DNA of 64,000 nt, from the NCBI RefSeq assembly GCF_029525575.1, contig NZ_JAPDIA010000001.1, forward strand, positions 434,001 through 498,000. Direction: 5' to 3'. Of the stretch, positions 34,764 through 37,729 are shown one piece after another (position 1 is the first letter of the stretch; each line of letters opens with the position of its first letter). The notes under the pieces were generated by a model. That model did no database searches. It saw only the letters and a program-made list of their open reading frames with translations, and was not told where the DNA came from. This DNA comes from Cohnella rhizosphaerae. Lineage in GTDB: Bacteria > Bacillota > Bacilli > Paenibacillales > Paenibacillaceae. A program made the position numbers and the translations under genes.

Positions 34764-35807
34764 TCAGCTCGGCGCAAGCCGCTGCACCGTCTGCCGAATC
34801 GCGAGCTCCAGCCGCGCGACGCTCGGATCGTCCGCAAGCGACGCCTCGCCTTCTTCGATCGCTTTGAGCAGCCGATCCGCCGCCATCGCGCCCCGGGCGA
34901 CGATGTTCTGCCGGACCGTGGTGAGCGGCGGATTGCACATCCGGGCGACGGGGATGTCGTCGAACCCGACGACCGAGACGTCCTCCGGCACCCGCTTGCC
35001 CGCGTCGGACAATCCGCGCAGCACGCCCATCGCGACCAGGTCGCTCGTCGCGAACACCGCCGTAATCTCGGGATGTCCGGCCGCGATCGCGGCAGCAGCC
35101 TCCTGCCCGTACTCGTAGCTGACCGAGTGCTCGAAGACGTGGTCCGGGTTGTAGAACAGACCGGCCTCCTTCAGCGCGCGCTTGTAGCCGAGGAACCGCT
35201 TTTCCACGACGCCGTCCTTGCGGATCAGTCCCGTCACCAGCGCGATGTTCGTATGCCCGTTGTCGATCAGCAGTTTGGTCGCCATGTAGCCCCCGGCTTC
35301 GTCGTCGATCGATACGGTCTGGAAGTAGCTGTCGTTCACGTAGCTGTCGATCAGCACGATCGGCACCTTGACCCGCTTCAAGTCGTCGTAGAAGCTCTCC
35401 TGGTAGATGCCCATGATGATCGCGCCGTCCAGATTGCGCTGCATGGACGTATCGAGATAGCCTTCGCCTTTGTCCACCCCCGAGAGGATCATGTGATAGC
35501 CGGACTGTCGAAGCCTGGCTTCGATGCCGCACACGAGCTCCGAGTAAAACGGATTTTGCAGCAGCAGCTGCTTCTGATCCTCCGTCTGGGGAATAACGAC
35601 GCCGATCAGCTTCGATCGGGTACCCGCCAGGCTTCGCGCCGAGAAATCGGGAATGTAGTTCAGCTCTTCGACCGCCCGGCGCACCTTCGACGCGGTCTCC
35701 TGCGACACCTTGCCTTCCCGGCCGTTCAATACGTAGGACACGGCCGCCGTGGATACGCCTGCGCGCTCCGACACGTCACGAATCGTAATGCGTTTCAATG
35801 GGGTCAC
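34764..35807 (-). CDS. LacI family transcriptional regulator of the sugar import/GH31 locus
   Basis: A 347-residue LacI/GalR repressor. The N-terminal helix-turn-helix (TIRDVSERAGVSTAAVSYVL) and hinge are followed by a periplasmic-binding-protein-like sugar sensor (LIGVVIPQTED, SVVGFDDIPVARMCNPPLTTV). It lies immediately upstream of the importer-thuBA operon in the same direction and is its probable regulator. Its own upstream region carries two copies of GTTAAACGCTT, suggesting autoregulation. It is complete and unbroken. Confidence 0.93.
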   Translation of the reverse strand: MTPLKRITIRDVSERAGVSTAAVSYVLNGREGKVSQETASKVRRAVEELNYIPDFSARSLAGTRSKLIGVVIPQTEDQKQLLLQNPFYSELVCGIEARLRQSGYHMILSGVDKGEGYLDTSMQRNLDGAIIMGIYQESFYDDLKRVKVPIVLIDSYVNDSYFQTVSIDDEAGGYMATKLLIDNGHTNIALVTGLIRKDGVVEKRFLGYKRALKEAGLFYNPDHVFEHSVSYEYGQEAAAAIAAGHPEITAVFATSDLVAMGVLRGLSDAGKRVPEDVSVVGFDDIPVARMCNPPLTTVRQNIVARGAMAADRLLKAIEEGEASLADDPSVARLELAIRQTVQRLAPS

Positions 35808-35845
35808 CTTCTGCGGGCTGTTGCCAATCCGTTTATTTATGTTAC

Positions 35846-35860
35846 TTTAAGCGTTTAACC
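35846..35860. promoter_or_regulatory. LacI-type operator candidate 1
   Basis: TTTAAGCGTTTAACC. It is a near-palindrome with the central CG typical of LacI-family operators, 39 bases upstream of the regulator's start. Its reverse complement shares GTTAAACGCTT with candidate 2. Confidence 0.5.
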
Positions 35861-35933
35861 TTACAATGCGATTATAAAAAAGGTTTGGAGGCGATTTCAA
35901 GCGTTATTTTTACTGATTTATCGGTTATTTTTA

Positions 35934-35949
35934 GTTAAACGCTTTAACC
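35934..35949. promoter_or_regulatory. LacI-type operator candidate 2
   Basis: GTTAAACGCTTTAACC, the inverted partner of candidate 1 about 88 bases away. A weaker related site (TTCAAGCGTTATT) lies between them near 35897. The two could allow DNA looping by a tetramer or dimer pair. Confidence 0.5.
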
Positions 35950-36053
35950 TTTTCGTCATATCGGCCTAAAAGAAGGACAAGAATACCTTCACCTCGAAAA
36001 AGCGCTGGATGGAAACTCCCTGCGAGACGATGCATCCCTGCCACGCAAAGCGC

Positions 36054-36595
36054 TCCTGGACAGGACCTCCTCAAGCGCCACACTCCCCATTTATGCCGGA
36101 GAGGTCCTGGATAGGACCTCTAAGCGTGCCCACATCGCCAACCAAGCCCATGTGGTCCTGGACAGGACCTCCTCAAGCGCCACACTCCCCACTTATGCCG
36201 GAGAGGTCCTGGATAGGACCTCTAAGCGAGTGCGCATCGCCAACCAAGCCCATGTGGTCCTGGATAGGACTTCCTCAAGCGCCACACTCCCCCCTTATGC
36301 CGGGGTGTTCCTGAATAGGACCTCTAAGCGAGTGCGCATCGCCAACCAAGCCCATGTGGTCCTGGTTAGGACTTCCTCAAGCGCCACACTCCCCACTTAT
36401 GCCGGAGAGGTCCTGGATAGGACCTCTAAGCGTGCCCACATCGCCAACCAAGCCCATGTGGTCCTGGTTAGACTTCCTCAAGCGCCATCCCCCCCCCCCC
36501 CCCCCCCCTTATGCCGGGGTGTTCCTGAATAGGACCTCTAAGCGAGTGCGCATCGCCAACCAAGCCCATGTGGTCCTGGATAGGACCTCCCCGCC
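36054..36595. repeat. Tandem array of eleven palindromes spaced 51 bp apart
   Basis: A palindrome of the form GAGGTCCT-N4-AGGACCTC (some copies imperfect) recurs at 36054, 36105, 36156, 36207, 36258, 36309, 36360, 36411, 36462, 36523 and 36574. Nine of the ten steps are exactly 51 bp; the tenth is 61 because of a 20-base C run at 36489-36508. Two different spacers of about 30 bases alternate, so the true period is about 102 bp. One spacer contains AAGCGCCACACTCCCC, the other AAGCG...CCAACCAAGCCCATG. Both begin with AAGCG, suggesting a common ancestor. All plus frames stay open because 51 is divisible by three, but no coding signal is seen. The surrounding DNA (35950-36053 and 36596-36793) shows no gene. 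Confidence 0.85.
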
Positions 36596-36793
36596 ACCGT
36601 TCTGCCATCCAGCGAAACGTTTCTAAATACAACGCTCAGCATGCTGTCACGCTCCTACCTCGCCAAAGTAACTTGTGTTACTGGAGAAAATGCGGCACTT
36701 TTGCGCGATAGGCGAAACGGCGAGCGGGGACGGAAGTCGCTTGTGTATTTTAATGCGCCAGATCGTCTTGTTGAGTGGACCGCGGGTAAAATA

Positions 36794-36836
36794 AAAACGG
36801 GATGAAGCTGATCTTACTCCCGCTTCATCCCGTTTT
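36794..36836 (-). terminator. Rho-independent terminator of the esterase gene
   Basis: A 15-bp stem (AAAACGGGATGAAGC / GCTTCATCCCGTTTT) with a 13-base loop. On the minus strand it ends in a U-rich tail, just after the esterase stop. Confidence 0.85.
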
Positions 36837-36848
36837 ACGTTAACCTCT

Positions 36849-37643
36849 TTAAACCTTGCCGCCCCGAAGCGGCAGCCATGCGAGCACGCGCTGGATGTGC
36901 GCGTCCCAGTAGCCCCAACTGTGATCGCCGGGGCCTTCCTCATAGTCGAGGGCGATGCCGAGCGACCGGACATGGTCGCGGAATCGGATGTTTTGGTCAT
37001 AGAGGAAGTCCTCCGTGCCGCAGCACTGATACAGCCTGGGCAGCGAGACGCCCCCGGCGGCGGCCCGTTCCGCGAGCGCGAACAGGTCGTCGTCGGAGCC
37101 GGCGGCCTCTTCCTTGCTGCCGAAGATCCATTTGTATTCCTTGTCGGCGAGCGGGCTCCCTTCATGATCGAAGGCCAGGATGTCCATGGCGCCCGACAGG
37201 CTCGCGACGGCCGCGAACTTCTCCGGCGCGCGGAGTCCGAGCTTCATCGCCCCGTAGCCGCCCATCGAGAGGCCCGCGGCGAAGCTGTCCTCGCGTTTCC
37301 CGGAGATCGGGAACAGGGATTGCGCGACATGCGGCAGCTCCTCGCTGACGAACGTCCAGTAATCGTGCCCGCTTTTCATGTTCGTATAGAAGCTTCTGTG
37401 AACCGCGGGCATGACGACGGCGATGCCGTATTCGGCCGCATAACGCTCGACGGACGTGCGCCGCAGCCAGATCGAATGGTCGTCGGACAGGCCGTGCAGC
37501 AGGTACAGCACCGGGAACTTGTCCCCTGTCTGCGCGCCGCCCGCTTCAACGCCGATGCCGTAGCTCCGTTCAGGAATGACGACGTTCATGCTCATGGACA
37601 AACCGAGCGTTTGCGCGAAAAAACCGCATTGAATGAGTGCCAT
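36849..37643 (-). CDS. Alpha/beta hydrolase, esterase D/tributyrin esterase family
   Basis: A 264-residue serine esterase. PVLYLLHGLSDDHSIWLRR gives the oxyanion-hole region. The nucleophile serine is in GLSMGGYGAMKLG, and GTEDFLYDQN and GDHSWGYWD supply the Asp and His of the triad. It resembles EstA/tributyrin esterase and acetyl-xylan-type family 1 esterases. No signal peptide is evident, so it is probably cytosolic and could deacylate sugars. The ATG at 37643 (MALIQ) has AGGAGG upstream and is preferred over 37670. A Gfo/Idh gene lies 87 bases upstream on the same strand. Confidence 0.88.
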   Translation of the reverse strand: MALIQCGFFAQTLGLSMSMNVVIPERSYGIGVEAGGAQTGDKFPVLYLLHGLSDDHSIWLRRTSVERYAAEYGIAVVMPAVHRSFYTNMKSGHDYWTFVSEELPHVAQSLFPISGKREDSFAAGLSMGGYGAMKLGLRAPEKFAAVASLSGAMDILAFDHEGSPLADKEYKWIFGSKEEAAGSDDDLFALAERAAAGGVSLPRLYQCCGTEDFLYDQNIRFRDHVRSLGIALDYEEGPGDHSWGYWDAHIQRVLAWLPLRGGKV

Positions 37644-37729
37644 CGAATCTCTCGCCTCCTGCGATATCAACCTCTACCCTCTACAATAGTAGAAGATCGC
37701 CGTCCGCGCCGCAAGGAGAGGCATCCCGC

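Follow-up and report, generated by a model that had tools for sequence, protein, structure and literature searches.

The 51-bp unit of a palindrome array in Cohnella rhizosphaerae is five helical turns of DNA with its A/T in phase, and the array is a member of the constant-length (51-53 nt) class of Firmicutes satellites. New here are the phasing and the rotational register of the palindrome dyad in this class, both of which are seen in two genera, Cohnella and Bacillus. We consider it probable that the arrays are five-turn bendable satellites, likely serving a twofold-symmetric protein as docking or wrapping sites. The first-pass annotation of the window (the whole 64,000-nucleotide stretch that was analysed) had proposed eleven palindromes on almost one DNA face upstream of two sugar loci, an interpretation that, taken as a whole, is partly supported.

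The eleven palindromes at 51 bp, with nine steps of 51 bp, one of 61 bp and two alternating spacer types, were confirmed by the sequence, TRF, a repeat search and a pattern scan (Table 1). Sites start at about 36050, 36101, 36152, 36203, 36254, 36305, 36356, 36407, 36458, 36519 and 36570. TRF reported a period of 51 and also 5.2 copies of 102 bp at 36054-36590, and the alternation of the two spacer types makes 102 bp a higher-order repeat. The pattern scan gave 25 matches over the window, of which 20 fell in the array (both strands counted), compared to a mean of 3.6 and a maximum of 9 in shuffles. The hairpin quoted in the annotation, GAGGTCCT-N4-AGGACCTC, does recur at 11 sites, but its exact form is found in just three of them and the arms differ in the others. 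A scan with TCCTN4AGGA (at most one mismatch) lists 10 array sites and one step of 112, overlooking the site at 36458. As single-stranded DNA, the palindrome at 36101..36120 is predicted to form a hairpin of -7.3 kcal/mol (z -3.7). The 61-bp step was considered as an extra helical turn, a reading that was dropped because a run of 20 C, possibly a homopolymer artefact as opposed to a true expansion, sits inside it; the step is therefore not to be taken as a deliberate added turn.

Table 1. Features of the array and its surroundings, in window positions.
Feature	Position	Strand	Details	Basis
LacI-family regulator gene adjoining the array	34764..35807	-		PF00356, PF13377
Promoter-like TTGAAA-18-TATAAT of the lacI-type gene	35871..35900	-	about 150 bp from the array	11/12 matches; consensus match only
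Palindrome array	36053..36589	.	11 sites, period 51 bp, higher-order unit 102 bp	sequence, TRF, repeat search, pattern scan
Exact palindrome GAGGTCCTGGATAGGACCTC	36101..36120, also 36203-36222 and 36407-36426	.		sequence, pattern scan
Palindrome of the alternate 51-bp unit	36152..36171	.	outer arms imperfect	sequence, pattern scan
Ninth palindrome, damaged	36458..36476	.	1 base lost	sequence; pattern scans skip the site
Run of 20 C in one spacer	36489..36508	+	within the sole 61-bp step	
Inverted repeat with T-rich ends, probable terminator	36785..36845	.	past the esterase gene	repeat search
Putative esterase gene	36849..37670	-	3' end toward the array	PF00756

The window array is one among many noncoding Cohnella arrays of 51 (50-52) bp, mostly unrelated in sequence, and its spacing is thus the length of a satellite unit. 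A census of tandem arrays with units of at least 15 bp covered 1,664 kb in seven Cohnella genomes, sampled without regard to arrays apart from the 64-kb window, and gave 82 arrays. Their periods were 51 bp in 33 cases, 52 in six and 50 and 49 in one each (41 of 82 within 49-52), plus dimers of 101 and 102 bp, the window array being entered as 102; tying the element to two sugar loci was thus too narrow. By the census rule, the samples of G003, G010 and G012 (100 kb each) held no 49-52 bp array, and the G010 sample carries 51-bp rows within a 287-bp repeat. In 20 other Cohnella genomes, sampled for breadth as 18 stretches of 20 kb plus single stretches of 15 and 1.5 kb, seven arrays of 51-53 bp were found in five genomes. 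Ten outgroup genomes (364 kb) gave four arrays, with periods of 103, 107, 53 and 40 bp, the 103-bp array being a dimer of 51 and 52 that matches itself at 60% when shifted by 51 or 52. Neighbouring 107- and 103-bp arrays lie at L162 11188-13024 in outgroup genome G040, of the same family, the 103-bp one with the hairpin AAGTAACTTTTGTTACTT.

The 49 array units that were compared fall into 34 families at less than 62% mutual identity. A DNA similarity search found more arrays, one with 33 copies, and had matches in three of 37 genus genomes, while a longer-pattern search of 100 genomes matched three (the window's genome, G005 and a lone site without an array in G098). The annotation had proposed searching for the palindrome in the full genome and in relatives, and the outcome is that it is no one-off: pairs of TCCTN4AGGA separated by a gap of 28-58 bp are present at several loci and in 8 of the 37 genus genomes, with 66 pairs in the window's genome, 38 in G005, 18 in G012, 10 in G013, 8 in G036 and 1 in each of three genomes. 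The reversed control pattern gave one match per strand in each of two genomes. Steps within this family (15 arrays, n=125) are 51 bp in 100 cases, 50 in 15 and 52 in seven, the others being 53, 56 and 112. Only 2 of 42 array rows of the class fall inside a called gene that reaches beyond the array (home-made gene caller), which marks the class as noncoding; among 23 arrays mostly inside called ORFs, six have a period of 51, and just two of these lie in a gene extending past the array.

The annotation knew of no named element of this kind, but constant-length satellites of 52 nt have been published, unexplained, for the Firmicutes (PMC8161180). As described in the main text of that paper, these repeats have a fixed length and varied sequence, form several families per genome and are abundant in Paenibacillus; short signals are often paired with their reverse inside one repeat, and conservation between strains is partial. 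Subirana and Messeguer, who reported the length as having no obvious explanation, proposed a polymerising protein or RNA (PMC8161180). Searched by term, the main text of PMC8161180 contains no mention of palindromes, hairpins, Cohnella, curvature, bending, periodicity or phasing, and it mentions the helix once, for 20-21 nt as two turns. The follow-up literature found on constant-length repeats consists of the same authors' own work and an editorial. The Cohnella arrays resemble the satellites described there in being noncoding and tandem, in a length of 51-53 nt irrespective of sequence and in their species-specific families. A large share of the arrays (39 of 82) is at 51 or 52 nt, the families are several per genome and unconserved (34 in all), and arrays of at least four repeats show partial conservation (11 sites in the window; 33, 15 and 10 at a shared locus). 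The mode in Cohnella is 51, as compared to 52 in the satellites treated in the main text of PMC8161180.

To measure phasing, A/T versus G/C was subjected to Fourier analysis on the circularised unit. The 49 units comprised 38 from sampled stretches and 11 from arrays met otherwise; five of the seven breadth-sample units were taken (the 53-bp unit of G008 and the second unit of G022 were omitted), the two L138 units, one coding and one not, were left out, and the 102-bp unit of the window was tested separately. In a first pass over 48 units and k=1-8, the fifth harmonic stood at z 15.6. Across the 34 Cohnella families, A/T power at k=5 (period 10.2 bp) was 0.130 compared to 0.047-0.048 in dinucleotide shuffles (z 10.5-11.7), and the remaining harmonics of k=1-25 lay between z -2.6 and +1.9; a repeat run over k=1-12 likewise put no other harmonic above z 2. 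Ordinary sequence gave lower values, with a mean of 0.050 for 3,814 non-array intergenic 51-mers and 0.044 for 3,000 of 17,689 coding 51-mers, and none of 20,000 bootstrap sets drawn from intergenic or coding 51-mers attained the Cohnella value. The signal is a tendency of the class: k=5 is the largest harmonic in only 13 of the 34 Cohnella and 9 of the 27 Bacillus families, and its share is low in some, such as L016 (0.004) and L097 (0.005). AA/TT (z 6.2) and GC (z 4.3) make up the bulk of it, and the purine signal at k=5 is z 0.2. Exact-base similarity at lag 10 is weak (0.30 versus 0.27), so the unit is not merely a 10-mer five times over.

The same phasing was found in Bacillus, where 27 consensus sequences from PMC8161180 gave 0.115 versus 0.042 at k=5 (z 9.5), or z 8.3 for the 23 left after removal of near-duplicates; k=9 also reached z 2.6-2.9 in this set. 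Families lacking a perfect palindrome were phased as well (z 6.0). In the window array itself, the A/T spectrum peaks at 10.20 bp inside the 8-14 bp band, and the 102-bp consensus has a k=10 share of 0.11 (p 0.003 versus shuffles), but k=38 is its strongest harmonic when every period is considered. Among 30 units of other lengths, some of which are coding repeats, 8 had p at or below 0.04 at a helical harmonic (54, 72, 91, 107, 114 twice, 204 and the window's 102 bp) and 22 did not, including those of 25, 31, 32, 61, 93, 101, 103, 111, 166 and 189 bp. Helical phasing is thus firm for the 51-52 bp class and tentative at other lengths. Longer units were also noted individually: fifteen copies of a 72-bp unit at L110 16392-17501 (G012), with the hairpin GGAATAGCGCAACTTTGCGCTATTCC and seven helical turns phased at p 0.037; two G024 arrays of a 114-bp unit (L098 16752-17178 and L099 12418-12897), with two hairpins per unit and a top A/T harmonic of 10.36 bp; and a unit of about 204 bp at L131 14574-15116 (G000:C5:474574-475116), with a top A/T harmonic of 10.2 bp (20 turns).

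Palindromes are over-represented in the class yet dispensable to it. A perfect inverted repeat with arms of at least 6 is present in 16 of the 34 Cohnella and 11 of the 27 Bacillus families, compared to 12% of shuffles (3,005/24,400), and is lacking in the other 18 Cohnella families, so that the palindrome is not required. These counts are systematic; in an earlier set of 17 typed palindromes, one fit no unit. Where a palindrome is present, its dyad keeps to one side of the helix. In Cohnella, 15 of 16 dyads lie within 60 degrees of the A/T peak, the exception being L016, which has almost no fifth harmonic, while 10 of 11 Bacillus dyads lie at the G/C peak, a register half a turn away. Shuffles with chance palindromes split evenly (1,110 versus 1,078 of 3,005), and palindrome and phasing therefore belong to one design. 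The earlier proposal that a spacing of five turns puts the palindromes on one DNA face is in this way supported well beyond the spacing, by the internal 10.2-bp A/T phasing and by the dyad register. Hairpin strength was set aside as a class-wide feature, being weak: p at or below 0.05 was reached by 7 of 43 units of the 51-bp class and likewise by 5 of 23 other units, and another score gave 11 of 50, with a combined p of 5e-7 over families that are non-independent.

The array lies between the esterase gene and the promoter-like sequence of the lacI-type gene, at about equal distances from the esterase end and the lacI start, and the regulator gene precedes sugar ABC transporter genes. Pfam was applied to the regulator, the esterase, the binding protein and two array ORFs. 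The inverted repeat past the esterase gene was seen by eye at the matching place in C. ginsengisoli, OV330 and GbtcB17; its loop is longer than the limit of 8 used in a terminator scan of the window, which found none. Among the best 11 of 28 loci that carry a relative of the LacI protein (7 Cohnella, 4 others), four have a 51-bp-period array upstream, with the period kept and the sequence differing. GbtcB17 has the same palindrome as the window with diverged spacers and a dimeric period of 101, C. ginsengisoli has a degraded TCCTATCTGGCA version, OV330 has a 51-bp array of a different palindrome around TGTACA, and the array palindrome in WQ 127256 is TGCAGTT-11-AACTGCA. The loci of C. silvisoli, C. 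endophytica and C. luojiensis contain only collagen-like repeats, taken for coding (one such row in C. silvisoli reads 51 bp x 1.9), and the four non-Cohnella loci compared have no array of this type. Long collagen-like repeats of 21- and 45-bp units, probably coding, adjoin the lacI orthologue in C. silvisoli and WQ 127256 (L014 4355-5344 and L016 4299-4988).

Gene context was examined with a simple dicodon gene caller over 1,264 kb from three genomes, including the window. Arrays shun divergent gene pairs: the 35 array-bearing intergenic regions are 15 convergent, 18 tandem and 2 divergent, compared to 56, 184 and 68 among array-free gaps of at least 200 bp (convergent versus divergent, p 0.0012). 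In tandem regions, the array is closer to the 3' end of the upstream gene in just 11 of 18 cases, no clear preference. At one locus with a common flank in three species, judged by eye, the arrays have 33, 15 and 10 hairpin sites. Two units from one species are 0.86 identical there and two from different species 0.84-0.86, a pair of units differing by 7-8 substitutions and 0.14-0.59 indels, so that the arrays look old and without recent homogenisation. Within 43 arrays, mutations lean toward keeping the phase: at k=5, S>W changes gave z +3.3 and W>S changes z -2.2, while changes that leave the class unaltered stayed under 1 in absolute value. This sign that the phase is maintained is suggestive, because harmonics other than the fifth are also large, with W>S at -3.7 for k=1 and S>W at -3.2 for k=4. 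Cumulative +1/-1 steps along arrays were compensated no more than in shuffles.

These observations suggest a mechanism. Since A/T-rich and G/C-rich stretches tend to follow each other along the five-turn unit in a cycle of one B-DNA turn, such units in tandem are expected to be readily bent toward one face, and the palindrome dyad, where present, would sit in fixed rotational register with that face. From this we infer bending in vivo and a twofold-symmetric protein that would bend or wrap the DNA in steps of about five turns. The arrays also sit where transcription should accumulate positive supercoils. Their usual position at gene ends, and their rarity between divergent promoters, favours gyrase, alone or with SMC, or else HU; gyrase agrees with the arrays in length, phase and location and is thus the one to consider first. 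We regard DNA gyrase as the leading candidate for the wrapping protein, with HU and SMC as alternatives.

The comparison with gyrase draws on the main points of PMC6379681. The E. coli gyrase motif described there spans 130 bp with phased 10-bp G/C variation, its A/T minor grooves thought to face the protein; it has a central 36-bp cleavage part, and fragments of 35-52 bp are thought to be wrapped on the GyrA C-terminal domains. Cleavage is reported for DNA downstream of transcription units and also for BIME-2 arrays, which are palindromic and contain gyrase sites (PMC6379681). The Cohnella arrays share the helically phased A/T and G/C variation with this motif and with strong gyrase sites of the Mu SGS type, whereas the E. 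coli motif is a single 130-bp site as described in that source and the arrays are tandem. Helical-period A/T phasing tied to curvature is also familiar from A-tract periodicity in prokaryotes, a genome- or segment-wide bias as presented in PMC3431218 and PMC3940949, but in Cohnella it is concentrated in discrete whole-turn tandem units. Against gyrase, the downstream enrichment in E. coli is said in PMC6379681 not to be hard-wired in sequence, and any single universal protein would have to accommodate the opposite registers of Bacillus and Cohnella. A more specific version of the docking model is tentative: the 52-nt satellites may be topological devices, multi-site docks (most likely for wrapping by the GyrA C-terminal domain) that would absorb positive supercoils past gene ends, their sequence drifting while selection acts only on length, phase and dyad register, half a turn apart in the two genera.

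The main rival is a functionless satellite amplified in whole helical turns. Under this neutral or selfish reading, length and phase would come from amplification, for instance by strand exchange or topoisomerase duplication on wrapped DNA cutting in whole turns, and arrays would persist where no promoter is disturbed. Their shunning of divergent regions, which hold two promoters, fits purifying selection against insertion; copy number varies at what is apparently one locus in three species (33, 15 and 10 hairpin sites), conservation between strains is partial in the satellites of Subirana and Messeguer (PMC8161180, main text), and the within-array mutation test is suggestive only. However, Bacillus and Cohnella hold the length to about 1 bp and are both phased with apparently unrelated sequences, coding tandem repeats in the same genomes have no clear preference for 51 (6 of 23), and arrays at the shared locus look old as opposed to freshly amplified. 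We think this reading unlikely, though it keeps an appreciable chance. A transcribed array whose hairpins work as RNA (small RNAs, a sponge or mRNA 3' ends) is considerably less probable. Repeats of 52 nt in B. coagulans are reported to be transcribed (PMC8625621), and the excess of palindromes over shuffles would suit it. Against it, 18 of the 34 families lack a perfect inverted repeat, helix-phased A/T is a property of the duplex, and arm covariation is weak, with 9 double changes in the TCCTN4AGGA family (permutation mean 4.2; reached by 6 in 1,000) versus 97 single-sided, and 4 (mean 2.4; 161 in 1,000) versus 77 in 13 other arrays, which argues against folded RNA as the main target of selection. 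A known RNA family was also sought, and the window has no Rfam match at the gathering threshold.

A regulator of the adjoining sugar genes bound cooperatively to the eleven palindromes is very improbable. While the array lies about 150 bp upstream of the promoter-like sequence of the lacI-type gene with its palindromes on one face, the palindrome pairs recur at several loci in the window's genome and are found in 8 of the 37 genomes of the genus, OV330 has a 51-bp array of another palindrome in the corresponding intergenic region, and the LacI gene has operator-like repeats of its own at 35842-35951. Those repeats, of the AAGCGTTTAACC type, lie at 35842-35862 and 35931-35951 on either side of the lacI promoter-like sequence and are likely autoregulation sites of the LacI regulator. 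Least credible of all are a REP/BIME element moved by a Y1 (RAYT) transposase, a CRISPR, a coding repeat or an assembly artefact. Like the BIME-2 and REP elements of enterobacteria, the arrays are palindromic, lie outside genes and are rare at divergent promoters, and Y1_Tnp occurs in 12 of the 37 genomes of the genus, of which two, G013 and G022, also have arrays. The Cohnella arrays differ in their fixed 51-bp unit and lack of a common sequence, and Y1_Tnp (PF01797) is absent from array-bearing G000, G005, G006, G012 and G024. The annotation had rightly judged the array unlike a CRISPR, as its two alternating spacer types recur and its repeats vary. It had likewise called the array noncoding, which holds: the ORFs of 101 and 126 aa over parts of it have no Pfam match, and its G005 counterpart at this locus repeats every 101 bp. 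An assembly artefact, named in the annotation as a possible refutation, is unlikely given related arrays at the same locus in other species and in independent assemblies. A close plasmid or phage source was rejected as well, there being no match in the plasmid and phage collections that were searched.

On the docking model with gyrase, the arrays would be a Firmicute counterpart of BIME-2. Five-turn phasing appears to explain the constant length of the class, and the published puzzle of a shared length of about 52 nt thereby gains a concrete answer: five turns, with A/T tending to be in phase, in two genera. Selection on the shape of the duplex over its sequence would explain why homology searches overlook such elements.
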